From: Methylomonas koyamae
GTDB taxonomy: Bacteria; Pseudomonadota; Gammaproteobacteria; Methylococcales; Methylomonadaceae
DNA: 60,962 nucleotides
Assembly: GCF_006483455.1 (NCBI RefSeq)
Contig: NZ_PPPU01000015.1
Location: 1 to 60,962, forward strand
Direction: 5' to 3'
Of the stretch, positions 1,032 through 15,475 are shown piece by piece. Made by a program: the position numbers and the translations under genes. Numbering within the stretch: the stretch's first letter is position 1; each line of letters begins with the position of its first letter. Under the pieces are notes generated by a model. The model searched no databases and was not told the DNA's origin. It saw nothing but the letters and a program-made list of their open reading frames with translations.

Positions 1032-1040
1032 GTTTGTTTT

Positions 1041-1291
1041 GTGTCGCTATCTCGACGGGTTTATTTAATGTCGGTTCGCGGACCGACAACCGCGATACTT
1101 TTCTTTGCTTGTCCAAAGAAAAGTATCCAAAAGAAACGACACCCCATGCCGCTTGTATCCTGCGCTCCGAAGGGTTTGAACGGGGTTTTCGGAAGGGCTA
1201 TCCATAGCCCTCCGAAAACGAGCGGCATCCCTGCCGCTCCCCTGCGGGCTGATCCGTCCAAACCCTCCGGTGCTCGGCGCGGCATCAGGGG
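1041..1291 (+). repeat. Hairpin-array repeat, copy A
   Basis: A 251-bp element starting GTGTCGCTATCTCGACG and ending CTCGGCGCGGCATC. It is a string of hairpins: a terminal one, GTCGG...CCGAC, a 10-bp ACTTTTCTTT/AAAGAAAAGT stem, a long stem with GGGTTTG/CAAACCC arms enclosing GTTTTCGGAAGGGCTAT/ATAGCCCTCCGAAAAC, and GAGCGGCA/TGCCGCTC followed by CCCTGCGGG. Five more copies (B-F) lie in the window. It pairs with inverted copy B. Confidence 0.9.
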
Positions 1292-1394
1292 GAGAAAAAC
1301 CATTCTGGAATTTAAAGTTTTAAAACAAACCCTGCATAGCCCATTACGCTGTGATAATGGGACCTACGCGGGTTACGATTCTAACTTGCGGACT

Positions 1395-2393
1395 TCAATG
1401 AAAATTACTACACCAACAATTTGTATCAGTAGCAGTTCCGGTTGAACAAGAAACATATTGACCAATTTGGGGGCCCTTAGCAATCTGTGCTCCTACGCAT
1501 GTTCCTGTGGCTCCCCATTGGCTGCCAGCGCAGAAAAGCTCGCAAGATACAGAACCATTGTTACCGCCTTTAGCAAAAATTTGTCCATCTAAGGTGCGAA
1601 TATTTTGCACTTTTTGAGACAAAACCTGGATGTCTGAGATGCTTCTATTAACTTTCGTATCAATGGCAGAGAGCGAATTTATTATCGAATCAACAGTGCC
1701 TATTGGAATCCCATCTCTTGTGTAACCCTGCCAAGGTAATGTAAGTGGTTGGCTAGATGCGTCATCTTTTCTAACTACACTTACATAGCCTTTTTTCGAC
1801 TGATCGGTTCTTGAACATTCAAGAACTGCAGTAGACCCTGAAACCATTTTAAGTGATTTGTCTGAATTTCCATCCCAGGTACATGTAATACCGTTCGATG
1901 TTGAATAAATTAAAGTAGTACTTGAGGCGTGTGTGTTTTGCGATGTAAAAGCAACAGACATGGAGAACTGATCAGGCAAAATACTCGCCAAATTCACGTT
2001 AAACTTTAAATCCTGTTGGGTCATTTTGAGGCATTGTTCATAGGCTCCATAAGCATTGGGGGAAATCGATTCAATGTATTGTCGGTAAACATCCTTTCGA
2101 GCTGAATAGTTATTGGAAGCAGAACAGTACTTGCTTGCTACCTCGTCTACTGATGCATTTGAATTACCATAACTTGCCGAAAGAAATTTATAACTTGCTC
2201 CAAAATTTGTATTTGAAGAGTGACCAGACGAACGTGCATACTCGTTGCAAAAATTAGCTGCATGCTGATCAACTGAATCTTTGTCAGAGACTGTTGTTGT
2301 GACAATTTTAGATAGTGCAATAACAGTTTCACATTCTTGCGCGTAAACAATATTTGCAATTGAAAATAAAGCAAGTAAACCAAAAGTTTTCAT
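1395..2393 (-). CDS. Secreted Cys-rich protein of unknown function
   Basis: I do not recognise the family. The 332-residue product begins with a clear signal peptide (MKTFGLLALFSIANIVYA, cleavage likely before QE), so it is exported. The middle is rich in Ser, Thr and Asn. Residues about 245-270 (IINSLSAIDTKVNRSISDIQ) may form a short coiled coil, and the last 50 residues contain at least six cysteines (SCELFC, GTCVG, YVSCS, NCWC), suggesting a disulphide-bonded tail. A strong AAAGGAG ribosome site precedes the ATG at 2393. The gene is much more AT-rich than its neighbours and lies exactly between inverted repeats A and B, so it looks like acquired cargo. Confidence 0.75.
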   Translation of the reverse strand: MKTFGLLALFSIANIVYAQECETVIALSKIVTTTVSDKDSVDQHAANFCNEYARSSGHSSNTNFGASYKFLSASYGNSNASVDEVASKYCSASNNYSARKDVYRQYIESISPNAYGAYEQCLKMTQQDLKFNVNLASILPDQFSMSVAFTSQNTHASSTTLIYSTSNGITCTWDGNSDKSLKMVSGSTAVLECSRTDQSKKGYVSVVRKDDASSQPLTLPWQGYTRDGIPIGTVDSIINSLSAIDTKVNRSISDIQVLSQKVQNIRTLDGQIFAKGGNNGSVSCELFCAGSQWGATGTCVGAQIAKGPQIGQYVSCSTGTATDTNCWCSNFH

Positions 2394-2430
2394 TATTAAC
2401 TCCTTTTGAAATGGAATGGCTGAACAAATT

Positions 2431-2460
2431 GAAGCACATCGTTCGCGACAGATGTGCTTC
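2431..2460. repeat. Hairpin upstream of cargo gene
   Basis: Perfect 10-bp inverted repeat GAAGCACATC/GATGTGCTTC with a 10-base loop, about 37 bp upstream of the secreted-protein start at 2393. A diverged version of the same hairpin is at 13861-13890, ahead of the AT-rich membrane-protein gene in the third repeat-bounded segment. Confidence 0.75.
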
Positions 2461-2527
2461 CTATGTTAAACGCTATGTTCAGACTTATAAAATCTCCAGA
2501 TTATTATTGTTTCCACGAAGGCTTAAT

Positions 2528-2779
2528 CCCCTGATGCCGCGCCGAGCACCGAAGGGTTTGTGCGGATCAGCCCGCAGGGGAGCGGCAGGGATGCCGCTCG
2601 TTTTCGGAGGGCTATGGATAGCCCTTCCGAAAACCCCGTTCAAACCCTTCGGAGCGCAGGATACAAGCGGCATGGGGTGGCTTTTTCTTTGGATACTTTC
2701 TTTTGGCCAAGCAAAAGAAAGTATCTCGGCTGTCGGGCCGAGACCCGACATTAAAATAAAGCCGTCGCAATAGCGACAC
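2528..2779 (-). repeat. Hairpin-array repeat, copy B
   Basis: A 252-bp inverted copy of element A, with the GTGTCGC end facing right, so A and B bracket 1.2 kb with outward-facing identical ends. It shares the GGGTTTG arm with A. Its terminal hairpin loop reads TATT instead of TATC. Confidence 0.9.
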
Positions 2780-2791
2780 CGAATGCTCAAT

Positions 2792-2824
2792 CCGTTCATG
2801 GTCCGACAAGCTCACCACGAACGG
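2792..2824. repeat. Second-type REP palindrome
   Basis: CCGTTCATGG...CCACGAACGG, an imperfect palindrome of the widespread GTTCGTGGTGAGCTTGTCG class, between repeat B and the ureD stop. Related sequence is found inside the urtB reading frame (9369-9418) and at 13400-13420. Confidence 0.6.
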
Positions 2825-2849
2825 CTTAACCGGCATACCACCAAAACTA

Positions 2850-3701
2850 TTAGGTCGCCCAAATCCTAGGCGCACAAACCGCCTTACCAACAACATCCCC
2901 CCTCACCAATCCCCAAACAGCTTCAAAAAACGATTTCAACAAATCCGCCCTAAGATCCAAGCCCCGACAAATCAACAAACCCTCAATTGAAGTCACCCCG
3001 CGATTAGCCTCATCCCCAATCAATTTCTGTACCGCCGCCAACTGCAAAGCCGAAGCGGGATAAACAAACATCGTCCCGCAGGCCGAATGCCCGAACAAAC
3101 CCCAGCGGGCCTGAAACGCTTCGGCATCCAGGCGCAAGCGTTCCAGGTAAAACAAACGCCCGGCGCGGCTGATGCGCCAATTCAAGGTTGCGGCGCCGTT
3201 GGCAAAGCCTTCGCCGGCAGCCGGGCGGCCTAGAGCCAAGATTTCCCAGCCGATGAAGCGGGCGTGATCGGCCAACTCGATATGCATGCTCGAATTTAAG
3301 CGCGCGCCTTCGTAAACGATGGTTTCCTGTGGCAACCATTCCAGGCTGGCGTGTTCTGAAACCTTGAGATTGACGGTTTGCCGGGCTTCGCCGCCTTCGC
3401 TGCGGTAAAACTTGCCGGCGGCGGGCGTGGTGATGAGTGCTTGGGCTGTGGTGTCGACAGCGGCAGTAATGCTCAGCTTATCGCCTGCCACTACGCCGCC
3501 GGGCGGATGCAGCAGATAGACGTGGCAGACTCCGCCTTCCGGATAGAAGGGCCGCTGCACGGTCAATGGCCCATGGTGCTCGCTGCTAGCCAAGACGGTT
3601 TTGTCGCCGCGTTGGCTAAAGCCCAGCCTTAACTCGGCCTCCCATGCTGCTGGCTCTGAGGTGGCAACGGGAACGGATGAAGCGGCGAGGTTTGCGGGCA
3701 T
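2850..3701 (-). CDS. ureD: Urease accessory protein UreD
   Basis: Urease chaperone that binds apo-urease and, with UreF and UreG, directs nickel into the active site. The 283-residue product has the UreD hallmarks: GFSQRGDKTVLA near the N-terminus, VQRPFYPEG, the HVYLLHPPGGVVAGDKL block, ALITTPAAGKFYRS, and ASLEWLPQETIVYEGA. Length fits the family. The ATG at 3701 follows the neighbouring small membrane-protein stop by 18 bp, consistent with transcription from the urt side. In related urea loci ureD runs straight into ureABC; here about 2.4 kb of inserted DNA separates it from ureA, so the urease structural genes may need their own promoter. Confidence 0.93.
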   Translation of the reverse strand: MPANLAASSVPVATSEPAAWEAELRLGFSQRGDKTVLASSEHHGPLTVQRPFYPEGGVCHVYLLHPPGGVVAGDKLSITAAVDTTAQALITTPAAGKFYRSEGGEARQTVNLKVSEHASLEWLPQETIVYEGARLNSSMHIELADHARFIGWEILALGRPAAGEGFANGAATLNWRISRAGRLFYLERLRLDAEAFQARWGLFGHSACGTMFVYPASALQLAAVQKLIGDEANRGVTSIEGLLICRGLDLRADLLKSFFEAVWGLVRGDVVGKAVCAPRIWAT

Positions 3702-3719
3702 GGATGAGCGGTGGCGTTA

Positions 3720-4022
3720 TCAGTTTTTGGATTTCGGCGTGATCGCCGATTTTTCCGACAACAGTGGTGGCTCAGACTTTTGAGCGTGCCGTTGCCGGGC
3801 GATGTGCAATATAACCGGGCCGAACACGAATCCCAAAATTAATACACTGATCAATAATGCCGGCAGATCGGGGATTTCGAAAAAGGGATGCAGGATGGCT
3901 TGGGTTAACTGTATCAGGTTGCCGCCTGCCATCACGGCTTCGTAACTGCCATGCGCCTCGCTCCGCATCGACCAAACCAATAACAATGCCCCGACCGCCA
4001 GCCAATATTGTTCGGATTTCAT
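3720..4022 (-). CDS. Small membrane protein of the urea cluster
   Basis: A 100-residue protein that I cannot assign to a named family. It has an N-terminal hydrophobic segment ending SEAHGSYEA (about 5-23), which could be a cleaved signal peptide. A second hydrophobic stretch (LPALLISVLILGFVFGPVIL, about 53-72) is a likely membrane helix, and the tail is basic and Lys/Ser-rich. It sits between urtE and ureD on the same strand with short gaps, so it is probably co-transcribed with them. It may help urea or nickel uptake or be incidental; neither can be decided from sequence. Confidence 0.7.
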   Translation of the reverse strand: MKSEQYWLAVGALLLVWSMRSEAHGSYEAVMAGGNLIQLTQAILHPFFEIPDLPALLISVLILGFVFGPVILHIARQRHAQKSEPPLLSEKSAITPKSKN

Positions 4023-4079
4023 GCCTATTTCTCCGTGATCCCGCTGTGAGTTTGAATGATGGCCGATGCCCGTTTTTGC

Positions 4080-4108
4080 CCAAGCCCCTTTTTTGAAAAG
4101 GGGCTTGG
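4080..4108. terminator. Intercistronic hairpin after urtE
   Basis: A perfect 13-bp stem, CCAAGCCCCTTTT/AAAAGGGGCTTGG, with a 3-base loop lies 5 bp after the urtE stop. There is no T-run after it on the minus strand, so it may set mRNA 3' ends or stability between urtE and the next gene rather than terminate fully. Confidence 0.55.
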
Positions 4109-4113
4109 TTGGG

Positions 4114-4890
4114 TCACACCGTCAAATATCGCTTCACCATATCGTCCGCCAATTCGTCCATCGCCCCGACCGCCACATGCCGGCCGCGGTCCATGATGCA
4201 GAATTGATTGGCCACCTTGCGGGCGAAGGGCAGTTTTTGCTCGACCAACAACACCGTCACGCCAAGCTCCTTGTGGATACGGTCGATGGCTTGGTGGATT
4301 TCGCCGGTTTCCGGTTTGGGCATTGGGGTGGCAATACCGCGCGATTTGTTCAGGCGAATGATCACATCGCCGATTTCGCTGACAATATTGGGCTGAATGC
4401 CTTCGGTGGGTTCGTCCAAAATCAGCAGGCGCGGGTTTATTACCAGCGCGCGGCCAATCGCCAATTGCTGTTGCTGGCCGCCGGACAGGTCGCCGCCCCG
4501 GCGCTTCAGCATTTGTTTTAGTACTGGAAAAATCTCGAAAATACTGTCCGGGACTTTTTTGATGCCGTGTTTGTTGGCGGCGCGCAGGCCGGTTTTCAGG
4601 TTTTCTTCTACGGTTAATAGCGGAAAGATTTCCCGGCCTTGCGGTACGTAACCGATGCCCATTTCCGCACGGGATTCGGCTTTGGCCTTGGCCAATTCCA
4701 CCCCGTCGAATTGAATGCTGCCGTCTGCCACTGGCAGCAAGCCCATGATGGCTTTGAGCAGTGTGGTTTTGCCGACGCCGTTGCGGCCCATCAGGCAGAC
4801 GCAGGAACCGGCGGGTACGCTCAAATCCAGGTCCCATAGGGTGTGGCTGGCGCCATAGTATTGTTGCAATGCGCTGATATTTAACATCAT
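4114..4890 (-). CDS. urtE: Urea ABC transporter ATPase UrtE
   Basis: Second ATPase of the high-affinity urea importer (LivF-like), on the cytoplasmic face of the UrtB/UrtC channel. The 258-residue product carries Walker A GRNGVGKTT (about 35-43), Q-loop YVPQG, signature LSGGQ (135-139) and Walker B LLILDEPTEGIQP (155-167). The ATG at 4890 overlaps the urtD stop by 4 bp (ATGA), so the two are translationally coupled; a longer upstream reading frame is out of context. Unusual: about 26 residues (roughly 183-208, GIATPMPKPETGEIHQAIDR and on) separate the Walker B helix from TVLLVEQKLPFAR. In most UrtE proteins I know these segments are nearly adjacent, so the product is longer than the usual 230 or so. 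Confidence 0.93.
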   Translation of the reverse strand: MMLNISALQQYYGASHTLWDLDLSVPAGSCVCLMGRNGVGKTTLLKAIMGLLPVADGSIQFDGVELAKAKAESRAEMGIGYVPQGREIFPLLTVEENLKTGLRAANKHGIKKVPDSIFEIFPVLKQMLKRRGGDLSGGQQQQLAIGRALVINPRLLILDEPTEGIQPNIVSEIGDVIIRLNKSRGIATPMPKPETGEIHQAIDRIHKELGVTVLLVEQKLPFARKVANQFCIMDRGRHVAVGAMDELADDMVKRYLTV

Positions 4891-5696
4891 CCCCCCAGGT
4901 AAACTTGGATCACGCGTGGATCGTTTTGGACTTCGTCCATGCTGCCTTCGGTCAGCACAGAGCCTTCGTGCAACACCGTGACTTTGCGGGCGATGCTGCG
5001 CACGAATTCCATGTCGTGCTCGACGACGACGATGGAATGTTTGCCTTGCAAGGACAGCAATAGTTCGGCGGTGCGTTCCACTTCTTGATGGGTCATGCCG
5101 GCGATGGGTTCGTCGACCAACATCACTTTTGGGTCCTGCATCAGCAGCATGCCGATTTCCAGCCATTGCTTCTGGCCGTGCGACAGGGCACCAGCCAGTT
5201 GCCGCTGTTGAGCGGGCAGGGCGATGGTTTGCAACACATCATGGATGCGGTCGCGCTGCTCGCTGTTGAGTTTGTGAAACAGCGTCGGCCAGGTGCGTTT
5301 GTCGGTTTTCAAGGCCAGTTCCAGGTTCTCGAACACGGTCAAGGCATCGAACACGCTGGGCTTTTGAAACTTGCGGCAGATACCGGCCTGGGCGATGGCT
5401 GGTTCGTCCAGTTCCAGCAAGTCGATGGTTTGGCCGAAGAACACTGAGCCGCTGTCGGGCTTGGTTTTGCCGGTGATGACGTCCATCAGCGTGGTCTTGC
5501 CGGCACCGTTAGGGCCGATCAGGCAGCGCAGTTCGCCGTCGTCGATGTACAACGACAGATGGTTCAGCGCGCGGAAGCCATCGAAACTGACGCTGACGTC
5601 TTCCATGTACAGAATCGGGCCGTGGCGGGCGTCGATTTCCCCGACCAGCGGCAAGCTGGCGCCGCCTTCGGTGGTGGTTGCAGCCGAGATCATCAT
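4887..5696 (-). CDS. urtD: Urea ABC transporter ATPase UrtD
   Basis: First ATPase of the urea importer (LivG-like). The 269-residue protein has Walker A GPNGAGKTT, a Q-loop in ICRKFQKPSVF, signature LSHGQKQWLEIG, Walker B VMLVDEPIAGMT and the H-switch VVVEHDMEFV. The LSHGQ signature and EPIAGMT are typical of UrtD rather than amino-acid LivG proteins. Two ATG codons in tandem begin the frame; the first overlaps the urtC stop by 4 bp. An N-terminal extension of about 25 residues precedes the ILYMEDVSVSFDGF core. It is coupled at both ends to urtC and urtE. Confidence 0.95.
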   Translation of the reverse strand: MMISAATTTEGGASLPLVGEIDARHGPILYMEDVSVSFDGFRALNHLSLYIDDGELRCLIGPNGAGKTTLMDVITGKTKPDSGSVFFGQTIDLLELDEPAIAQAGICRKFQKPSVFDALTVFENLELALKTDKRTWPTLFHKLNSEQRDRIHDVLQTIALPAQQRQLAGALSHGQKQWLEIGMLLMQDPKVMLVDEPIAGMTHQEVERTAELLLSLQGKHSIVVVEHDMEFVRSIARKVTVLHEGSVLTEGSMDEVQNDPRVIQVYLGG

Positions 5697-6811
5697 GCCG
5701 GTTGTCCTCCGGTAGCGTTAAGAGTGGGTTTGGGTTTAATCCGCCGGCGCAACAGGCCGACGATGCCGTCGGGCATCAACAGCGTGACCAAAATGAAGGC
5801 GCCGCCCAGGCAAAACAGCCAGGCATCCGGCATCAATCCGGTCAATACGGTTTTGGCGTAGTTGACCAGCACCGCGCCGATGATCGCGCCATATAAAGTG
5901 CCGCGACCGCCGACCGCCACCCAGATGACGATTTCCAGCGAGTTGAGCGGCGAGAATTCGCTGGGGTTGATGATGCCGACCTGCGGCACGTACAGCGCGC
6001 CGGCCAGCCCGGCCAGCATGGCCGCGAACACGAACACCCAGAGTTTGAACAATTCCACCCGGTAACCTAGAAAGCGCACCCGCGATTCTTGGTCGCGAAT
6101 GGCGGTGACGACCCGGCCCAATTTGCTATTCACGATCCAGCGACAGAGCAGCAGGGCACCGATCAGGCTCAGGCCGGTCATTAGTAACAATACCGAACGG
6201 ACGGCTTCGGATTGGATATTGAAGCCCAGGATGTCTTTGAAATCCGTCAGTCCATTATTGCCGCCGAAACCCATTTCGTTGCGGAAGAAAGCCAGTAACA
6301 GCGCGTAAGTCAACGCTTGGGTGATGATGGATAAGTAAACGCCGGTCACCCGCGACCGAAACGCCAGCCATCCGAACACGAAGGCCAGCAAACCTGGGGC
6401 GAGGAATACCATCAACATCGCAAATCCGAAATTCTCGAAGCCGTACCAATACCAAGGCAGTTCGGTCCAGTTCAGGAACACCATGAAGTCGGGTAGTTCG
6501 GCATTGCCGTAAACACCACGGGTACCGATCTGCCGCATCAAATACATGCCCATCGCGTAGCCGCCCAGCGCGAAGAATGCGCCTTGACCCAAGACCAGAA
6601 TGCCGGCGTATCCCCAGACCATATCGAGTGATAAGCCGAGGAGGGCGAAGGTGAGATATTTGCCGATCAGGGAGACTGAGTAGGCCGAAAAGTGAAGGGC
6701 CGAGTCTTCGGGGAAGATTAGGTTGCAGAGGGGGATTAGTAGTGTGACCGATGCTAACGCGGTTAGGACGGTGCTGTAGGTTTTGTCTTGAGTCAGATTG
6801 CTTATATTCAT
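5693..6811 (-). CDS. urtC: Urea ABC transporter permease UrtC
   Basis: Inner-membrane permease half of the urea importer (LivM-like). The 372-residue product has about ten hydrophobic helices and the recognisable segments LDMVWGYAGILVLGQGAFFALGG (residues about 55-80), SIITQALTYALLLAF, GGNNGLTDF and VAVGGRGTLYGAIIGA. Its stop overlaps the urtD start. Repeat C begins only 18 bp upstream of its ATG (6811), and about 0.9 kb of repeats separates it from urtB, so in this genome urtC-D-E must be read either through many hairpins or from a promoter inside the repeats. Confidence 0.95.
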   Translation of the reverse strand: MNISNLTQDKTYSTVLTALASVTLLIPLCNLIFPEDSALHFSAYSVSLIGKYLTFALLGLSLDMVWGYAGILVLGQGAFFALGGYAMGMYLMRQIGTRGVYGNAELPDFMVFLNWTELPWYWYGFENFGFAMLMVFLAPGLLAFVFGWLAFRSRVTGVYLSIITQALTYALLLAFFRNEMGFGGNNGLTDFKDILGFNIQSEAVRSVLLLMTGLSLIGALLLCRWIVNSKLGRVVTAIRDQESRVRFLGYRVELFKLWVFVFAAMLAGLAGALYVPQVGIINPSEFSPLNSLEIVIWVAVGGRGTLYGAIIGAVLVNYAKTVLTGLMPDAWLFCLGGAFILVTLLMPDGIVGLLRRRIKPKPTLNATGGQPA

Positions 6812-6828
6812 TTGACTACCGTTGTTTG

Positions 6829-7081
6829 GTGTCGCTATCGCGACGACTTAATTTTGATGTCGGTTCTCGGACCGACAGCCGAGACACTTTTCTTTGCTCC
6901 GCCAAAGAAAAGTGTCCAAAAGAAAGGCGGCCCGGATGCCGCTTATATCCTGCGCGCCGAAGTTTTTATCGAGGGTCGGCAGAAGGGGCTTCCCTGCCCC
7001 TCCGCCGCCGTGCGGCATCCCTGCCGCACCCCTTCAGGCTATTCTCGATAAAAACTTCGGTGCTCGGCGCGGCATACGGGG
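6829..7081 (+). repeat. Hairpin-array repeat, copy C
   Basis: A 253-bp copy with outer end GTGTCGCTATCGCGACG. Its long-stem arms (6957-6973 and 7044-7060) are 17-bp perfect complements, CCGAAGTTTTTATCGAG/CTCGATAAAAACTTCGG, unlike those of A or B, while the flanking consensus (CTTCGGTGCTCGGCGCGGCAT) is unchanged. It pairs with inverted copy D. Confidence 0.9.
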
Positions 7082-7106
7082 TTAAAACCATCAGCCGCCC
7101 AAATGT

Positions 7107-7177
7107 GCGTAGGGTGGGCAACTTTGCCCACCGTTGGCTGCTATTCCGCGTGGGCACTTAATCGTGCCCACCCTACG
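7107..7177. repeat. REP doublet R3 (BIME-like)
   Basis: Two REP hairpins in head-to-head orientation, GCGTAGGGTGGGCA at 7107 and TGCCCACCCTACG ending at 7177. They form a BIME-like pair in the middle of the C-D repeat pair, between urtB and urtC. Confidence 0.88.
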
Positions 7178-7240
7178 ACTGAGTCTCAAGCTAGTCGGAA
7201 AGGATGGGCCGACCACCTTAATTTTCGTGGCGGGGTTAGT

Positions 7241-7649
7241 CCCGTTATTTCGCCCCGAGCATCGCAGCTCTTGTGCCCCGTGGGTATTTGGCGAGATCAG
7301 CCCGCAGGGGAGCGGCAGGGATGCCGCTCGTTTTCGGAGGGGCTGGGAAGCCCCTTCCGAAAACCCTCGCCAAAAGCGACAAATTTGCCTGGAGCAAATT
7401 TGAACAGCCGATAGGCTGGCCCGCAGGGCGAAAACCATGGATGGTTTTCGTAAAAGCCAGGATTAAGGCGGAATGTCGGGTGGCCTTTTCTTTGGATACT
7501 TTCTTTTGGCCAAACAAAAGAAAGTATCTCGGTTGTCGGGCCGACAAATCGGCAGGATTGCCGATTTGCATGCATAGCACCCGCAGGGCGAAACACATGG
7601 ATGTGTTTCGTGAACCCGACTTCTAAACAACCCGTCGCGGTAGCGACAC
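7241..7649 (-). repeat. Hairpin-array repeat, copy D
   Basis: The longest copy, about 409 bp, with its GTGTCGC end facing right. It carries two extra modules at hairpin tips, each made of a small hairpin followed by CCCTGCGGG and another hairpin (about 7370-7460 and 7545-7615). About 300 bp are nearly identical to copy E in inverse orientation (about eleven differences by eye). Confidence 0.9.
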
Positions 7650-7689
7650 AACAAAAACCAAAGCCATCAAATAATCCAAAAGCCTTCGT

Positions 7690-7715
7690 GTTGGGTTACG
7701 CTTCGCTAACCCAAC
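7690..7715. repeat. Third-type REP hairpin
   Basis: GTTGGGTTA/TAACCCAAC, a 9-bp stem with loop CGCTTCGC, followed by CTACGC. It lies 15 bp beyond the urtB stop and may also act as a 3'-end hairpin for the urtA-urtB message. Confidence 0.7.
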
Positions 7716-7729
7716 CTACGCGAGTCACA

Positions 7730-9502: not shown

Positions 9503-9565
9503 GCTCAAGAGGCTGTTTTTGGGGGAACGGTCGGCCGGGCGTAAACCGGGCGGCGTTTTTAAACG
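9448..9565. repeat. 16-bp inverted repeat spanning the urtB start
   Basis: CGTTTAAAAACGCCGC (9448-9463) and its exact complement GCGGCGTTTTTAAACG (9550-9565) flank the urtB start codon region. In the urtA-urtB message they could form a long stem enclosing the urtB initiation site. A further hairpin, GTCGGGGGC...GCCCGCGAC, is at 9600-9620 in the same 155-bp gap. Confidence 0.6.
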
Positions 9566-9657
9566 GGTTCTAAAACGGTGGCTTTGCATCGTAATTCCTG
9601 TCGGGGGCGAAGCCCGCGACTTCCGTGTCGCGCGCCTCGCGGGGATAACATCCGCTG

Positions 9658-10959
9658 TTAGTAGTTCTGTCCTGAACACTTCTTGGTTTTGGTGTTGTAG
9701 TTGCCGCAATTGATCGGTGCGGTCCAGTCGGCGATGATCGGTTTGCTGTCCGGCAGGAAGTCGGACCAGGCGTCGCCGTCGACGACTTTGTTGGTTTGCC
9801 ATACGGTGGCGAATTGGCCGTCTTCCTGGATTTCGCCGATCAGCACCGGTTTGCTGATGTGGTGGTTGGGCAGCATTTTCGCGGTGCCGCCGGTCAGGTT
9901 GGGGAATTCGACGCCGATGATGGCTTTTTGCACCGCGTCGGGATCGGTGGTGCCGGCTTTCTCGACCGCTTTCACCCACATGTTGAAGCCGATGTAGTGC
10001 GCTTCCATCGGATCGTTGGTCACGCGTTTCGGATTCTTGATGTAGTCCTTCCATTGCTGGATGAAGGCCGCGTTTTTGGTGGTGTCTACGCTCATGAAGT
10101 AGTTCCAGGCTGCCAAATGGCCGACCAGCGGTTTGGTATCCATGCCGGACAGTTCCTCTTCGCCGACCGAGAACGCGACGACCGGAATGTCTTCAGCTTT
10201 AATGCCTTGGTTGCCCAATTCTTTATAGAACGGGACGTTGGCGTCGCCGTTGATGGTCGAAACCACCGCGGTTTTCTTGCCGGCCGAGCCGAATTTTTTG
10301 ATGTCGGCGACGATGCTTTGCCAGTCGGAATGGCCGAACGGGGTGTAGTTGATCATGATGTCCGCCGGTTTAACGCCTTTGGCTTTCAAGTACGCTTCCA
10401 GGATTTTGTTGGTGGTGCGCGGATAGACGTAGTCGGTACCGGCCAACACCCAACGTTGCACTTTCAGATCGTTCATCAAGTAATCGACCGCCGGAATCGC
10501 TTGTTGGTTAGGCGCGGCGCCGGTGTAGAACACGTTTTTGGAAGACTCTTCGCCTTCGTATTGCACCGGGTAGAACAGGATGCTGTTCAGCTCTTCGATC
10601 ACCGGCAATACCGATTTCCGGGAAACGGAGGTCCAGCAGCCGAAGATGGCCGAGACTTTGTCCTTGGTGATCAGCTCGCGGGCTTTTTCCGCAAATAACG
10701 GCCAGTTGGAGGCCGGGTCGACCACCACCGCTTCCAGTTTCTTGCCGAGCAGACCGCCTTTTTTGTTTTGCTCGTCGATCAGCATCAGTATGGTGTCTTT
10801 CAGCGTGGTTTCCGAGATCGCCATGGTGCCGGACAGCGAATGCAGTACGCCGACCTTGATGGTGTCTTCGGCCTGGGCCGAGCCGGCGGCGCCGAACAGC
10901 GCGGTGGAGAGTGCTGCGGCGGTCGCCAGTTTGCGGAAGGAAATGCTCAGTCTTTTCAT
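9658..10959 (-). CDS. urtA: Urea-binding protein UrtA
   Basis: Periplasmic substrate-binding protein of the urea importer. The 433-residue product starts with a signal peptide (MKRLSISFRKLATAAAL...GSAQA, about 30 residues). The mature part has the UrtA signature IKVGVLHSLSGTMAISE, then IFGCWTSVSRKSVLPVIEE and LFYPVQYEGEESS, which separate UrtA from branched-chain amino-acid binding proteins. The C-terminus (INCGNYNTKTKKCSGQNY) has two Cys that may form a disulphide. It is the first gene of the urtA-urtB pair. The urtA start is preceded by a 170-bp gap largely occupied by a REP doublet that separates it from the porin gene. Urea transporters of this kind are usually nitrogen-regulated, but I could not identify a sigma-54 site. 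Confidence 0.97.
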   Translation of the reverse strand: MKRLSISFRKLATAAALSTALFGAAGSAQAEDTIKVGVLHSLSGTMAISETTLKDTILMLIDEQNKKGGLLGKKLEAVVVDPASNWPLFAEKARELITKDKVSAIFGCWTSVSRKSVLPVIEELNSILFYPVQYEGEESSKNVFYTGAAPNQQAIPAVDYLMNDLKVQRWVLAGTDYVYPRTTNKILEAYLKAKGVKPADIMINYTPFGHSDWQSIVADIKKFGSAGKKTAVVSTINGDANVPFYKELGNQGIKAEDIPVVAFSVGEEELSGMDTKPLVGHLAAWNYFMSVDTTKNAAFIQQWKDYIKNPKRVTNDPMEAHYIGFNMWVKAVEKAGTTDPDAVQKAIIGVEFPNLTGGTAKMLPNHHISKPVLIGEIQEDGQFATVWQTNKVVDGDAWSDFLPDSKPIIADWTAPINCGNYNTKTKKCSGQNY

Positions 10960-11017
10960 TGTAGTAGTCCTATGTCAGGAAGAAATCGTGGGCGATGGTG
11001 GCCCGTTTGCTTGCTAG

Positions 11018-11091
11018 GTAGGGTGGGCACGCAGTGCCCACGCGTGAAGGTTTCTGCTTCGCGTGGGCACCTATTCGGTGCCCACCCTACG
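11018..11091. repeat. REP doublet R4 (BIME-like)
   Basis: Two head-to-head REP hairpins, GTAGGGTGGGCACGCAGTGCC from 11018 and a complement ending GGTGCCCACCCTACG at 11091. They lie between the porin stop (11131) and the urtA start (10959), where they may act as a 3'-end hairpin for the porin message. Confidence 0.88.
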
Positions 11092-11130
11092 GTTTGTCAG
11101 GTTGGCGTAAATGTGGCTATGCCACCGTCA

Positions 11131-12423
11131 TTAAATTTGCCACTGGAAGCCGACCATCATCTGGCTGACGTCGTCGCCGGTGGCGGTGGATTTGTAGTTG
11201 ATGCCCTTGGTTAACAGGTCGCCGTATTGGTAGCTGGCGAAAATTTTGGCGTTGTGGCCGTCGATGATGTAGTTGACGCCGGCTTCATACACCTCGCGGG
11301 TGGAACTGGTGCTGGGGGAGACGTTGACGTAGCGCAGGAACGGTTGGAACTGGCCGATACCGATCTTTTGCGGAAACAGGTACATGCCGCTGACGTCGTA
11401 AGCATTTCCTTCGAACATCGAGAATTGGGTTGACCGGTCGGTTCCCTCGCTATCGCGGACTGATTGGTTGTATGCGTTGCCGGAAATCCCGTAGTTTTTG
11501 TACTCGCCATTGAAGGTCACGACGCCGCCGCCGGGCAATACTTTTTCCATCAACAGATCGACCGTGGTGCCCCGAAAACTACCTGCTGCCGCAGGAATCG
11601 CCGGATCGGCTCCACTGGCCGCGGTAAATCCACGGCCGGCGCCGTCTTCCTGATATTGGTTGGAGATGCCGACGGTCAGGATGTCGCCGCCTTTGCCGTA
11701 ATAGGTGCCGGAGGTGTAATAGCCTGGGTTCTTCTCGACTTCCCAAAAGTTATAAGCGACGCGTTGCCCATAGAGAATATTGTGGTCGACGTTAGCGCCG
11801 CCGCGTAAGCCGCGGAAAAAACCGGCGGCGTATTGCAAGCGACCGTCGAATGCCGCACCCCAGAAGGTGACACCGTCGTCGCGGCCGAAGGAACCGGCCG
11901 AGGTGCCGTCGGATTTGATGACCAAGTTGTAATCCGAGGGTTCGAACGGGGTACCGGCGGAGAAGATGTTATAAACGGCGCTGTAGAACGGACCGTTCAT
12001 TTCGCGGCGTTCGGCCGGGACCAGCATCCGGCCCACCCACAAGTTGGCGTAAGGATTGACCTCGAATTTGCCGATCGCGTCCAGTACCCGCACCTCGCCG
12101 CCGTTGCCGCAGGTTTGGCAGTCGGTGTTGAATTCCACTTTCAGGTATTTATGGATTTGGCCGTTGATATACAAACGGATGTTGTCCAGGTTGAAATCGT
12201 TGCTCCATTTTTCCGCGCCGGCACCGGCGGCACTTTCCTGAGCGCGGAAACTGGTGCGCAAACCGGCGCCGACGCTGACCCATTTGGTGTCGTCGATCTT
12301 GAAGGTGGCGCCGGCTGTCGCTTCCGGCGCCTGGCTCAGGCCGATGGCACCCAAGGCCATACCGCTCAGCAAGCCGATGGCCCGGCTGCCGGTTTTTTGT
12401 CGATTAAAACCCGTCATTTGCAT
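11131..12423 (-). CDS. Outer-membrane porin, probably for urea/amides
   Basis: A 430-residue outer-membrane protein: signal peptide (about 1-38, SGMALGAIGLSQAPEATA), then alternating strands with many aromatics (NDFNLDNIRLYINGQIHKYLKVEFNTD, NPYANLWVGRMLVPAERREM) and a terminal strand (QMMVGFQWQI) near-ideal for BAM recognition. It resembles OprO/OprP-type and FmdC-like porins. FmdC of Methylophilus methylotrophus is co-expressed with a short-chain amide/urea transporter, so position next to urtA suggests urea passage; that is inference. It has Cys in TDCQTCGNGGE, an odd pair for a porin. The start could be either of two nearby ATGs (12423 or 12417). Confidence 0.85.
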   Translation of the reverse strand: MQMTGFNRQKTGSRAIGLLSGMALGAIGLSQAPEATAGATFKIDDTKWVSVGAGLRTSFRAQESAAGAGAEKWSNDFNLDNIRLYINGQIHKYLKVEFNTDCQTCGNGGEVRVLDAIGKFEVNPYANLWVGRMLVPAERREMNGPFYSAVYNIFSAGTPFEPSDYNLVIKSDGTSAGSFGRDDGVTFWGAAFDGRLQYAAGFFRGLRGGANVDHNILYGQRVAYNFWEVEKNPGYYTSGTYYGKGGDILTVGISNQYQEDGAGRGFTAASGADPAIPAAAGSFRGTTVDLLMEKVLPGGGVVTFNGEYKNYGISGNAYNQSVRDSEGTDRSTQFSMFEGNAYDVSGMYLFPQKIGIGQFQPFLRYVNVSPSTSSTREVYEAGVNYIIDGHNAKIFASYQYGDLLTKGINYKSTATGDDVSQMMVGFQWQI

Positions 12424-12521
12424 TCCCCTATCTAGTTAAAACTTGCCAGAGCCGGCGGCCGTGGCGCTCGTAAACTTCGGGGAAATTTTTAAATTTTGCG
12501 CGGTCCTGCCACAATCGGGCG

Positions 12522-12539
12522 AATGACTCATCAGTCATT
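12522..12539. promoter_or_regulatory. Palindrome between divergent genes (operator candidate)
   Basis: AATGACT-CATC-AGTCATT, a perfect 7-bp inverted repeat in the 180-bp gap between the divergent porin and periplasmic-protein genes. The size suits a dimeric regulator such as the LuxR-type protein at 18844, but no site preference for that protein is known. Confidence 0.3.
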
Positions 12540-12602
12540 TGACGTATGGCCGGCAACTCGCGGCGTCCGTAGAGTGGCAAGCAACTTGGGAGAGAGAAGA
12601 CT

Positions 12603-13322
12603 ATGAAAAACTTTTTTGTTTTGGCTGTCGCCGCACTGGGTTTTGCCGGTGCGGCAGGCGCGGCCGAGCCGGAACCGGTCAAGCCGCTGCAGGCGGTTGC
12701 ATTCGAACTGGCCGACGATAATCTGAGCCAGTTCGGCATTGGATTGGACCCGGCGAATCTGGCTGAGCGGGTACGGAACAATCTGGCGGAATGGCAGTTT
12801 CCGCTCAGCGCCAGCGGGCCGTTCAGCCACCGGTTGCAGGCCAGGCTGGGTAAAGTGGCGCGGCGGGAAACCCCGGTCGGCTTTTCGTTTTCCTCCGGCA
12901 ACTCCGACCCGCGCGCCGTCGATTTCCAAAAAGCCGACGTATTGCCGGTGACCTGCAGTTTGCGCGATGCCGGCAATCAGGCGGTTTTGGTCGAACGCGA
13001 ATCGACTTTCAGCGCCCATGCTTTAGACAAAGACGTTGCCCCGGCGCGGATCGCCGACAAACTGGTCGACCAAATCGGCACCGCCTGCCTGGACGTGCTG
13101 GAGCAAGCACCGCTGCCGAAGCAACCTGGCCGAGTCAGAACCGAGTTGTTCAAACCGAAATGGATGCCGGACGTGCGGGTGGAGGTTCGGGAGATTCCGG
13201 CTGCGGCGGGGGCGAGTACTGCAGCGCAACCGGCGGCGATAGGCGACGAGCCGAAGAAGGAGGTGATTATTCATAACCAGGGCAATCCGGTGATTTTTCA
13301 GTTTGGGTATGAGAGGAAGTGA
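12603..13322 (+). CDS. Periplasmic protein of unknown function
   Basis: A 239-residue protein with a clean signal peptide (MKNFFVLAVAALGFAGAAGA, cleavage before AEPEP). The body has no motif I can name. It contains PVTCSLRDAGNQAVLVERES and IGTACLDVLEQAP, giving two cysteines that could pair, and a Pro/Ala linker (about 195-215) before a conserved-looking tail (KKEVIIHNQGNPVIFQFGYERK). A GGGAGAGAAG ribosome site precedes the ATG. It is divergent from the porin, sharing a 180-bp regulatory gap, so the two may be co-regulated. The next gene on this strand is far away beyond repeat E. Confidence 0.75.
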   Translation: MKNFFVLAVAALGFAGAAGAAEPEPVKPLQAVAFELADDNLSQFGIGLDPANLAERVRNNLAEWQFPLSASGPFSHRLQARLGKVARRETPVGFSFSSGNSDPRAVDFQKADVLPVTCSLRDAGNQAVLVERESTFSAHALDKDVAPARIADKLVDQIGTACLDVLEQAPLPKQPGRVRTELFKPKWMPDVRVEVREIPAAAGASTAAQPAAIGDEPKKEVIIHNQGNPVIFQFGYERK

Positions 13323-13349
13323 TGTGCTTTGGTGTTGATTCCGTGCTTG

Positions 13350-13399
13350 GTCGACTGCATGGATACAGGAGGTAGAGCAACGCAGGAGCAGTTGCCGAG
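13350..13399. repeat. 50-bp repeat, copy 1
   Basis: TCGACTGCATGGATACAGGA...GAGCAGTTGCCGAG. A nearly identical copy is inserted inside hairpin-array repeat F at 15350-15398. It is followed at 13400-13420 by GGCTTGTCGAACCGTGAGCGG, a REP-type end. Confidence 0.8.
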
Positions 13400-13434
13400 A
13401 GGCTTGTCGAACCGTGAGCGGAGAATCAATTGAG

Positions 13435-13776
13435 GTGTCGCTGGCGCGACGGCTGGTTTTAAAGTCGGGTTTCGGCCCGACAGCCGAGATACTTTCTTTT
13501 GCTTGGCCAAAAGAAAGTATCCAAAGAAAAGGCCACCCGACATTCCGCCTTAATCCTGCGCTTTACGAAAACCATCCGTGGTTTTCGCCCTGCGGGTCAG
13601 CCTATCGGCTGTTCAAATTTGCTCCAGGCAAATTTGTCGCTTTTGGCGAGGGTTTTCGGAAGGGGCTTCCCAGCCCCTCCGAAAACGAGCGGCATCCCTG
13701 CCGCTCCCCTACGGGCCAATCTCGCCAAATACCCACGGGGCACAAGAGCTGGGATGCTCGGGGCGGAATAACGGGA
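13435..13776 (+). repeat. Hairpin-array repeat, copy E
   Basis: A 342-bp copy starting GTGTCGCTGGCGCGACG. It is near-identical to copy D in inverse orientation and shares its TTTGGCGAG/CTCGCCAAA arm. It pairs with copy F around a 1.4-kb segment carrying a membrane-protein gene and a RAYT. Confidence 0.9.
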
Positions 13777-13860
13777 ACGACCCCGTCGCGAGATGAAAGG
13801 TTATTAGATGATTTTGAAAGCTAGGATTTTGATTGTGTTGTAGGATGCTGCCGACGAAAG

Positions 13861-13912
13861 GAGGCGCATCGTTCGCGATCGATGGGCTTCGCTCCGTTCG
13901 GCACATCCATCG
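13861..13912. repeat. Hairpin upstream of cargo gene
   Basis: GAGGCGCATC/GATGGGCTTC with a 10-base loop, then GCTCCGTTCGGCACATCCATCG. It is a diverged relative of the hairpin at 2431-2460 and likewise lies about 40 bp upstream of an AT-rich gene enclosed by hairpin-array repeats. Confidence 0.6.
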
Positions 13913-13932
13913 GAATAAATTTTCAGGCATTT

Positions 13933-14448
13933 ATGAAAAATAAATCAAGTTTAGCTAGCGCTGCTTTATTATTTGTTTTATTAACATTTATATTGTCGTT
14001 ATTCGATCTCGATATATTTTTATTAAAAATTCCAGAGTTTAATCAATTAGAAACTGGCGATGGGACGATATCATTTAACCTTACGCCACTAAGCAGAGGT
14101 AGTTCACTAATGCTTAACGGTCAAGGTAAATCTATCGAATTGAACTGCTGGATAACAAGTGTTGGGATGAAAGATTGCGTCGCTTCCGAAGATAAAAATC
14201 AACTTAAAGGCAAAAAAGCGAAAGCATGGTGGTATGAGGCAAGAATCAATGGATTTTTTACTGAAAATCGGCTCCTTCAGCTGGACGTTGATGGAAAGCT
14301 AGTAATTGATTATTTAGATCAACGAAGTAAATATATCAAAAGTAAGGAGGCTTATATTTATGTTTGGCCTATGTTTTTTTGCGTCGCTGTGTTTTTTTAT
14401 TTTGTCGTGCGCCTGAGTAATAATTATCGTAACAAATGTTCAACGTAG
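13933..14448 (+). CDS. AT-rich two-helix membrane protein, unknown function
   Basis: A 171-residue product from the ATG at 13933 (MKNKSSLASAALLFVLLTFI). I preferred it to an in-frame ATG 51 bp upstream because the upstream codons are repeat-derived. It has one membrane helix near the N-terminus (about 7-27), a polar middle region with two cysteines (LNCWITSVGMKDCVAS), and a second helix near the C-terminus (VWPMFFCVAVFFYFVVRL). The middle would face the periplasm. Base composition is clearly more AT-rich than neighbouring genes, like the cargo gene at 1395. No family recognised. It lies between repeat E and the RAYT unit. Confidence 0.65.
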   Translation: MKNKSSLASAALLFVLLTFILSLFDLDIFLLKIPEFNQLETGDGTISFNLTPLSRGSSLMLNGQGKSIELNCWITSVGMKDCVASEDKNQLKGKKAKAWWYEARINGFFTENRLLQLDVDGKLVIDYLDQRSKYIKSKEAYIYVWPMFFCVAVFFYFVVRLSNNYRNKCST

Positions 14449-14451
14449 CTG

Positions 14452-14484
14452 CGTAGGGTGGGCACGGCTTTTTGTGCCCACGCG
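14452..14484 (+). repeat. REP hairpin R5, left flank of RAYT
   Basis: CGTAGGGTGGGCACGGCTTT...GCCCACGCG, 33 bp. It is the exact reverse complement of R6 at 15082-15114; together they frame the transposase gene. Confidence 0.93.
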
Positions 14485-14531
14485 GGGAAAACCACAAACC
14501 CTGATTTAACCATCAAAAATTAACGACCGAA

Positions 14532-15071
14532 ATGTCCCGTTACCGCCGCTCGCAAAATCCCGGTGCAACGTATTTTTTCACGGTGGTGACGTATCGGCGG
14601 CAAGCGATTTTATGTGATGAACCGATACGGGAAGCTTTGCGCACGGCGATTGCAACAACTCGCGCCAAACGACCGTTTAACATAGATGCCTGGGTTCTGT
14701 TGCCGGATCATTTGCACTGTATTTGGACTTTACCGGTTGACGATGCAGATTTTGCAACCCGTTGGAGCGTGATAAAACGGCAGGTGAGCGTGGCATGTGG
14801 TGACGCATATCGGCGGGCCGAATGGATCAATGCCTCGAAACAAAAACATCGGGAATCGACCTTATGGCAACGCCGGTATTGGGAGCATCAAATACGCGAT
14901 GAAACCGATTTTGCCCGGCATATGGATTACATTCATTACAACCCGGTAAAGCACGGGTATTCGCAGCAGGTCAAAGATTGGCCGTATTCGACGTTTCATC
15001 GATATGTAAAGGAAGGCGTTTATTCGATGGATTGGGGGGATGGCGTTGATGAATTGGTTGTGGGGGAGTGA
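14532..15071 (+). CDS. REP-associated tyrosine transposase (RAYT)
   Basis: Single-strand-specific HUH-type nuclease/transposase of the Y1/RAYT family that cuts and moves REP hairpins. The 179-residue product starts MSRYRRSQNPGATYFFTVVTYRR. It has the two-histidine metal motif in DHLHCIW and ends its core with HMDYIHYNPVKHGY, which provides the candidate nucleophilic tyrosine. Length and motifs are intact, so it may be active. Perfect 33-bp inverted REPs sit 48 bp upstream of its ATG and 11 bp after its stop, the usual RAYT-REP arrangement. The other REPs of this sequence class in the window (53, 419, 7107, 11018) are likely to have been spread by this enzyme or a relative. Confidence 0.95.
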   Translation: MSRYRRSQNPGATYFFTVVTYRRQAILCDEPIREALRTAIATTRAKRPFNIDAWVLLPDHLHCIWTLPVDDADFATRWSVIKRQVSVACGDAYRRAEWINASKQKHRESTLWQRRYWEHQIRDETDFARHMDYIHYNPVKHGYSQQVKDWPYSTFHRYVKEGVYSMDWGDGVDELVVGE

Positions 15072-15081
15072 ACGGTTTGTC

Positions 15082-15114
15082 CGCGTGGGCACAAAAAGCC
15101 GTGCCCACCCTACG
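15082..15114 (-). repeat. REP hairpin R6, right flank of RAYT
   Basis: Exact reverse complement of R5 over 33 bp, just downstream of the RAYT stop. Confidence 0.93.
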
Positions 15115-15173
15115 AATCTAGATTGGTTTCTTTAGAATGAACCCAATCCGTTTTGATAGCGCGATGGTTTTGT

Positions 15174-15471
15174 CCCGTATGCTGCGCCGAGCACCGGAGC
15201 TTTTGGTGGGAATAGCCCGAAGGGGTGTGGCAGGGATGCCGCACGTTGGCGAAGGGGCAGGAAGCCCCTTTCGCCAACCCCCGCCAAAAGCTTCGGAGCG
15301 CAGGGAATAAGCGGCATCCGGGTGTCTTTTCTTTTGGATACTTTTCTTTCGACTGCAGGGATGCAGGAGGTAGAGCAACGCATGGAGCAGTTGCCGAGGA
15401 CAAGCAAAGAAAAGTATCGCGGCTGTCGGTCCGCGAACCGACTTCAAAAACACCCGTCGCGATAGCGACAC
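15174..15471 (-). repeat. Hairpin-array repeat, copy F
   Basis: Inverted copy with its GTGTCGC end facing right. Without a 49-bp insert (15350-15398) it would be about 249 bp, like A-C. Its arms are GAGCTTTTGG/CCAAAAGCT and its inner stem is GTTGGCGAA/TTCGCCAAC, both unlike the other copies but still self-complementary. The outer end stops 4 bp before the kinase start codon. Confidence 0.9.
15350..15398. repeat. 50-bp repeat, copy 2, nested in repeat F
   Basis: The sequence CGACTGCAGGGATGCAGGAG...AGCAGTTGCCGAG interrupts the ACTTTTCTTT hairpin of repeat F near its tip. It matches 13350-13399, so it arrived after repeat F, or repeat F tolerates insertion at that tip. Confidence 0.8.
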
Positions 15472-15475
15472 AACT

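Follow-up and report, generated by a model that had tools for sequence, protein, structure and literature searches.

Arrays of GGA-loop hairpins border exchangeable gene cassettes in Methylomonas koyamae and resemble CsrA-binding RNAs

Proteins of the CsrA family bind hexaloops of the form ANGGAN. The consensus obtained by systematic evolution of ligands by exponential enrichment (SELEX) is RUACARGGAUGU, and most of the selected hairpins have four pairs or fewer (PMC7652899). Among small RNA families, TwoAYGGAY (RF01731) has been proposed to bind CsrA (PMC4333381) and is listed for gamma-Proteobacteria, Clostridiales and the human gut (PMC2864571), whereas RsmW (RF02809) is an RsmA-binding small RNA (sRNA) derived from the 3' untranslated region (UTR) of PA4570 in Pseudomonas (PMC4950607). 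Both families belong to Rfam clan CL00106. Here we describe six arrays of hairpins, A to F, in a stretch of 60,962 nucleotides from Methylomonas koyamae (contig NZ_PPPU01000015.1; hereafter the window), one of the 89 contigs of the 4.54-Mb source genome. The arrays belong to a real and widespread family of RNA type, near the TwoAYGGAY/RsmW clan, and are used as inverted borders of exchangeable accessory genes. We give about even chances to the reading that they are CsrA-type RNA arrays at the ends of exchangeable gene cassettes.

A first-pass annotation of the window had described six copies of a modular hairpin family and had proposed selection on folding, not on coding. All six copies were found at the positions it gave (Table 1), and the main-stem sequences it quoted are present letter for letter. 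Its recurring block of a hairpin plus CCCTGCGGG is real and corresponds to a CCCG-NN-AGGG mini-hairpin adjoining a GGA-loop hairpin. Two features were added by our analysis, namely the GGA loops and the back-to-back pairing of the arrays around genes. The core of about 112 nt consists of a main stem, the CCCG-NN-AGGG mini-hairpin and two hairpins. Folding copies B, C, D and F as RNA gave z-scores of -9.1, -10.0, -9.1 and -6.0 against 200, 200, 100 and 100 dinucleotide shuffles, respectively, and no shuffle was as stable.

The covariation set was a MAFFT alignment of 76 cores from 80 extracted (three long and one short left out), the extraction rule having missed 21 further full-length matches. 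Double-sided changes were seen in 30 of the 44 pairs. There were 484 double-change cells compared with 161.6 in shuffles, with 0 of 500 shuffles as high, and none of the 500 reached the observed value on any of five covariation measures; the 76 cores are related copies, and these shuffle counts are not probabilities. Sliding the stem partners by 1-3 columns lowered the paired cells from 94.7% to 39-48%. Outside the genus (26 matches at 18 loci), 40 of 44 pairs had changed on both sides, the stems being altered almost throughout and still pairing, and the covariation score was 0.696 versus 0.153 shuffled, in an alignment fitted to the covariance model, which favours the structure. Selection on folding is well supported by both sets, and the covariation check suggested with the first-pass annotation turned up strong double changes in the collected copies, far above the shuffles.

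G-U exceeded A-C in the stems (124 versus 46 of 4911 cells, where single columns give 37 G-U and 19 A-C). This excess shows which strand folds and fits RNA and single-stranded DNA alike; we rejected it as proof of RNA because a G-T pair is tolerated in DNA too. The main rival is that the arrays act as single-stranded DNA, folding at the ends of a transposon-like or cassette element, and that a recombinase or an HUH-type enzyme would read their GGA loops. Hairpins are read as single-stranded DNA in the IS200/IS605, REP (repetitive extragenic palindromic)/RAYT (REP-associated tyrosine transposase) and integron attC systems. We consider this explanation unlikely, though a serious one, and return to it with the cassettes.

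The loops speak more directly. In the orientation of B, GGA occurs in 113 of 114 loops for each of the two core hairpins, counted in the best 114 of 150 aligned model matches, and such counts are biased towards GGA in that the covariance model has learned these loops. The exceptions are L115, where the inner stem has also decayed, and L049. Although the 5' stem arm of the first core hairpin comes in 24 versions among the 114 copies, its GGA loop is retained and reads ANGGAT in 99 (AGGGAT 65, ATGGAT 24, AAGGAT 10). Across the 38 copies longer than 200 nt in the source genome, GGA was found in 109 of 213 predicted loops on the forward strand and in 1 of 218 on the reverse strand. Counting distinct stems over 215 distinct full-length arrays, 68 of 107 had GGA, 4 had TCC and 35 had neither, a group made up largely of the long CTTTCTTTTG-type stem and of hairpins close to the outer end. 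GGA loops recur in the extra blocks of D and E, whose stems are unrelated. In matches from outside the genus, 50 of 63 hairpins had GGA and one had TCC, TGGA loops being common there, and window hairpins outside the arrays had GGA in 1 of 36 and TCC in 2 of 36. GGA (ANGGA) in hairpin loops is a trait of the functional class of CsrA-binding RNAs, and the arrays have it; at the level of sequence, their loop motif is the CsrA/RsmA recognition motif. It points to RNA and CsrA, and so speaks against single-stranded DNA, rather than settling between the two.

The loops also bear on whether the arrays are passive palindromes without function, similar to REP sequences or miniature inverted-repeat transposable elements (MITEs), with stems kept complementary by template-switch repair and gene conversion. 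The arrays are repetitive, palindromic and mostly intergenic, forms with terminal inverted repeats exist, and palindromes can be corrected by template-switch repair. Template switching can account for restored stems, not for GGA loops that persist on one strand while the stems change, and several families of the class retain the array layout. Loop conservation speaks strongly against passive repeats, which we regard as very improbable.

The covariance model detected 37 sense copies above 90 bits in the source genome; the scan returned 50 rows, 13 of them weak hits to the antisense strand of strong copies. By blastn, matches were present in 30 of 41 genomes (the source counted), namely 23 of 25 from the genus and 7 of 16 from the rest of the order. 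At E 1e-6 the model matched 83 of 201 genomes of the order Methylococcales and 34 of 369 of the class Gammaproteobacteria, in 28 of 272 genera, counts that include the source genome and are made under stricter filters that lose weak matches. The phage collection yielded no array match by blastn, and a phage origin was set aside on that ground. Plasmid matches to the arrays were only 41 bp long and came from three Pasteurella multocida records; at 90% identity they cover window 2683-2723, part of array B's long CTTTCTTTTGG-type stem.

MITEs are bounded by terminal inverted repeats. With a strict pattern for one type of such repeat, 6 of the 215 distinct full-length arrays were bounded in this way and none in the window, which does not make the family MITEs; bounded forms appear commoner by eye than this count. 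The six would suit single-stranded DNA. As some arrays lie between short inverted repeats, they are probably able to move by other means too. Arrays of this MITE-like form, between CTGATGTTACGCA / TGCGTAACATCAG-like inverted repeats, are L109, L136, L152, L159, L189 and L274, and those of assigned kinship (all except L189) come from other Methylococcales genera.

The first-pass annotation knew of no named family with this layout. This is correct insofar as no Rfam family reached its gathering score in 20 array loci, and membership of a known Rfam family was rejected accordingly; it is incomplete in that the cores come near the cut-offs of two families of one clan. RsmW matched B, D and A at 39.3, 29.8 and 28.2 bits, below the gathering cut-off of 52, and the match on B was confirmed, a chance-level MEG8_3 match (16 bits) overlapping B too; no other Rfam family of relevance was matched in the window. 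TwoAYGGAY gave four matches among 15 loci outside the genus, the best at 40.6 bits with a cut-off of 43, and all four lie inside or over model matches, on array cores. PrrB_RsmZ (RF00166), the one sponge family searched for genome-wide, had no match in the source genome at E 0.001, and the control genomes were also without a match over the cut-off.

The arrays may share with TwoAYGGAY two hairpins with AYGGAY-like loops; they differ in that the second loop base is mostly G in the Methylomonas-rich set, that they score below gathering, and that they form a paired-cassette layout not met in the parts of the TwoAYGGAY literature consulted. They share with RsmW the multi-hairpin RNA, the GGA loops and, as proposed below, the 3' UTR origin, but RsmW is described as one sRNA (PMC4950607), compared with a dispersed family of 37 copies here. 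CsrB, CsrC and RsmX/Y/Z sponges likewise have many GGA hairpins per RNA, whereas the arrays occur in many copies and have no recognised promoter of their own. With REP/REPIN-RAYT systems and CGTC-tagged repeats (PMC3733652) they have in common palindromes, inverted dimers, a nearby RAYT and, by our reading, a CGTC beside the outer hairpin. However, the arrays are about 260 bp or more, multi-hairpin, show no GTAG tag and border many different genes, so they are not the GTAG-tagged palindromes of 20-40 bp that flank a RAYT; the RAYT in the window has its own GTAGGG hairpins. No description of paired GGA arrays around cassettes was found by title or abstract among the papers listed in the open-licence literature searched.

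Strands alternate in the window, with A, C and E on the minus and B, D and F on the plus strand, which makes A-B, C-D and E-F back-to-back pairs (-+). The same arrangement prevails elsewhere. Among 91 distinct pairs of neighbouring arrays within 3.5 kb, 74 were -+, 9 ++, 6 -- and 2 +-, and an earlier, smaller set had 32 -+, 10 same-way and 0 +-; these loci were chosen by array matches, shared sites included, and are not a random sample. The source genome has 13 -+, 3 ++, 2 -- and 0 +- neighbour pairs, with 26 of its 40 arrays and fragments in -+ pairs. Outside the genus -+ pairs were seen at L283, L285, L286, L287, L292 and L297, the exception being L284 (+-).

The pairs mostly enclose one or two genes. 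Units with an open reading frame (ORF) of 100 aa held 51 non-identical cargoes, many of them homologous at shared sites, with ORFs on both strands in 2 units. Interior GC content was 0.34-0.48 in 29 of the 32 interiors first listed; in the window the two gene-bearing interiors have 0.391 and 0.439, compared with 0.556 outside the cassettes. Only some cargoes had Pfam matches, which include NACHT with SNaCT11, AAA_15/AAA_21 ATPases, DUF3644, DUF2971, DUF3825, DUF5677, DUF1152, PIN, KAP NTPase, AbiU2, T5orf172, OmpA and Y1_Tnp (RAYT). Of 20 chosen larger cargoes compared with PADLOC, 6 matched below 1e-10 (L126 generic AAA, L043 PDC-S19, L046 PDC-S05, L048 HEC-04, L232 PDC-S20, L287 PDC-S57), 13 had no match and L035 was weak (0.0054). 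Some cargo genes thus appear defence-like.

The cassettes have a polarity. By rough patterns, a ATGGTTTT-like end occurs in 39 of 51 downstream inner flanks versus 8 of 51 upstream, and a CGCGACGGGG-like end in 20 of 51 upstream versus 6 of 51 downstream. No conserved promoter was drawn for the cassette leader: a loose filter left 10 of 321 flanks for alignment, and one of these looks out of place. The distance from cargo stop codon to array has a median of 92 bp.

We followed the three window sites, S1 to S3, in 37 genomes of the genus and in 20 fetched regions plus the window, leaving array matches below 60 bits out of the site table. Cargo differed between genomes at all three. S1 lies before ureD; the other marker, yoeB, is present in 8 of 21 regions, and elsewhere the 4 kb before ureD were taken. 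Of these 21 regions, 13 have a -+ pair with cargo, three have one array (two at contig ends) and five have none (one region incomplete). All 13 filled regions have their longest cargo ORF on the same strand; by blastp such ORFs are alike only in the pairs G011/G042 and G006/G012, and the second ORF is a RAYT in three regions. At S2 (20 regions) we found 12 pairs, three single arrays and five without any, and the alignment runs unbroken across both flanking genes in seven further genomes (G001, G003, G004, G010, G021, G043, G051). At S3 (19 regions) the counts were 14, three and two, with the longest ORF on one strand in 13 of the 14 filled and a RAYT, sometimes in pieces, in 10 of the 14.

Different genes are swapped at fixed sites in Neisseria minimal mobile elements and integron cassettes also. 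What distinguishes the present sites is that the borders are inverted GGA-hairpin arrays, in a comparison that covers the array borders alone. In G042, a genome of the same species, S1 carries a KAP NTPase together with a RAYT-like gene, and not the 332-aa gene. Its ureD beside S1 is 85% identical, compared with 97-99% for the S3 genes and 90-94% for others, as if S1 had been imported together with its flank.

In G002 and G018 all that is left of the S1 arrays is a palindrome of about 75 bp, consisting of the outer hairpin from each side and one shared middle hairpin. The two scars do not have the same sequence, and they could represent either deletion products or an ancestral state. Such empty sites and scars, the inverted pairs around cargo, and the polarity with different upstream and downstream inner flanks are what folded single-stranded DNA ends would also give, and a RAYT lies within some cassettes. 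Against this, the units examined have no gene in common. There are two groups of RAYTs, each shared mainly at a single site (S1 or S3), and the window copy sits between inverted GTAGGG-type REP-like hairpins of its own (14441-14490 and 15076-15125); on these grounds we set aside the idea that RAYT moves the arrays. Up to four extra GGA hairpins, as in array D, suit a protein sponge better than an end that is recognised once.

For CsrA-type arrays we propose the following scheme. Each array would be the DNA of a structured RNA of the CsrA/RsmA-binding type, in which a long main stem encloses the CCCG-NN-AGGG mini-hairpin and two GGA-loop hairpins, followed by further hairpins and, in some copies, by extra GGA modules. 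Two outward-pointing arrays would form the ends of an exchangeable cassette with usually one or two accessory genes. Whichever way a cargo gene reads, the array behind it lies in sense, so that a GGA array would form the 3' end of its transcript. Such a CsrA-binding end of the cargo message is suggested because the array follows the gene in sense at a median of 92 bp and because RsmW, to which this 3' end may be compared, is likewise derived from a 3' UTR. The GGA array would bind CsrA dimers and thereby titrate the regulator, protect the message, or both. Homologous recombination through flanks and arrays would be the simplest way of replacing cassettes at fixed sites, and cassettes may be lost when two arrays are joined at their palindromic next-to-last hairpins.

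The short distance to the stop codon and the very stable hairpins could equally belong to bidirectional 3'-end elements (processing stops, mRNA stabilisers or insulators) that shield neighbours from inserted genes, with GGA serving another RNA-binding protein. The presence of arrays in genomes without csrA would agree with this. By itself, such a role does not explain GGA in the loops of unrelated stems, and we hold it to be improbable.

Predicted CsrA binding is the likeliest single reading of the arrays, and several observations weigh against it. Array stems have 7-10 bp and more and are longer than those of the CsrA SELEX winners. Fifteen of the 67 complete -+ units, such as C-D in the window, are without an ORF of 100 aa. 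The outer array end has no T-run in the sequences inspected, and the upstream array of a pair, which points away from the cargo, requires a different promoter. Cargo common to different sites is rare in the sample, and movement of whole units is weakly shown: the only interiors with more than 350 aligned bases between different flanks were L045/L262, some units with a RAYT and a pair that turned out to belong to S3, which makes the different-flank label not fully reliable.

The remaining objections concern csrA itself. The source genome has one csrA, the gene is present in 185 of the 201 genomes of the order, and there is no association with arrays (77 of 83 array-positive versus 108 of 118 array-negative genomes). 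As it is equally common with and without arrays, the presence of csrA was rejected as positive evidence. In the set of 41 genomes, csrA is missing in 7 of 30 with a blastn array match and in 3 of 11 without. The array-positive genomes of the order without csrA are G004, G020, G165, G192, G196 and G198, drafts of 60-240 contigs. Within the genus, csrA went unmatched in 7 of the 25 genomes (G001, G003, G004, G010, G017, G020, G022); they are 2.0-3.7 Mb in size and 77-99% complete. The absence is probably real in several of them, since G003, G004 and G022 are rated 99% and G020 95% complete. Five of these seven have blastn array matches (G003, G004, G010, G017, G020), and model matches number 13 in G004, 6 in G010, 5 in G003 and none in G001. 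G003, G004 and G010, together with G043 (csrA status not tested), supplied 28 matches, two of which were truncated and excluded; in the other 26, GGA occurs in 44 of 78 hairpins and TCC in one, and at L318 both core loops have lost GGA. The GGA arrays kept in genomes without csrA are the strongest point against the CsrA reading and count for the single-stranded DNA rival. Either csrA was lost recently in these genomes, or CsrA is not the sole reader.

A broader proposal, which we advance tentatively as something short of probable, is a cassette platform shared by several gammaproteobacterial families, in which outward CsrA-binding arrays are portable ends and each incoming accessory or defence gene brings its own CsrA-titrating 3' UTR, which would wire it at once into the carbon-storage regulation of the host. 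The arrays link a candidate RNA family without a settled role, the TwoAYGGAY/RsmW clan, to the exchange of accessory genes and supply its genomic context. They make testable both the role of GGA-hairpin repeats and the swapping of single defence-like genes at fixed sites in methanotrophs and their relatives. If CsrA binds them, one genome holds 37 possible sponge copies, and the Csr networks of these bacteria would have to be redrawn. As markers, the arrays can also help to find accessory genes whose function is unknown.

Table 1 Arrays, cassette contents and S1 palindromes (window coordinates unless a locus is named)
Feature	Position	Strand	Core RNA domain	Model score (bits)	Remarks
Array A	1039..1300	-	1162-1273	127.0	GGA loops AGGGAT, ATGGAT, GGACAAGC
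Cassette 1 cargo gene	1395..2393	-			332 aa; no Pfam or NCBIfam match
Array B	2518..2782	+	2546-2657	126.8	RsmW 39.3 bits at 2501-2639
Array C	6828..7091	-	6952-7063	113.7	
Spacer between C and D	7092..7224				Short; two REP-like hairpins; no ORF of 50 aa or more
Array D	7225..7651	+	7284-7379	92.0	Extra GGA-hairpin blocks; extra GGA loops 7388-7394, 7437-7442, 7554-7559, 7597-7602
Array E	13433..13805	-	13637-13732	91.3	Extra GGA-hairpin blocks
Cassette 3, first cargo gene	13882..14448	+			188 aa; no Pfam or NCBIfam match
Cassette 3, second gene (RAYT)	14532..15071	+			PF01797 3.7e-7; NF047646 1.3e-59
Array F	15164..15473	+	15191-15301	118.8	Long stem interrupted by extra GGA hairpins
Three-hairpin palindrome, about 75 bp, at otherwise array-free S1	L239 1507-1583				Window orientation, locus reverse complemented
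Three-hairpin palindrome, about 75 bp, at otherwise array-free S1	L238 1783-1859				Window orientation, locus reverse complemented

A repeated block with further GGA hairpins lies at 13351-13399, just outside array E, and at 15349-15398, within the long stem of F. Hairpins resembling the GTAGGG type that flanks the RAYT were seen at window positions 53, 419 and 7109-7175. A YoeB-like toxin gene (PF06769; 582-1031) stops about 10 bp short of array A.

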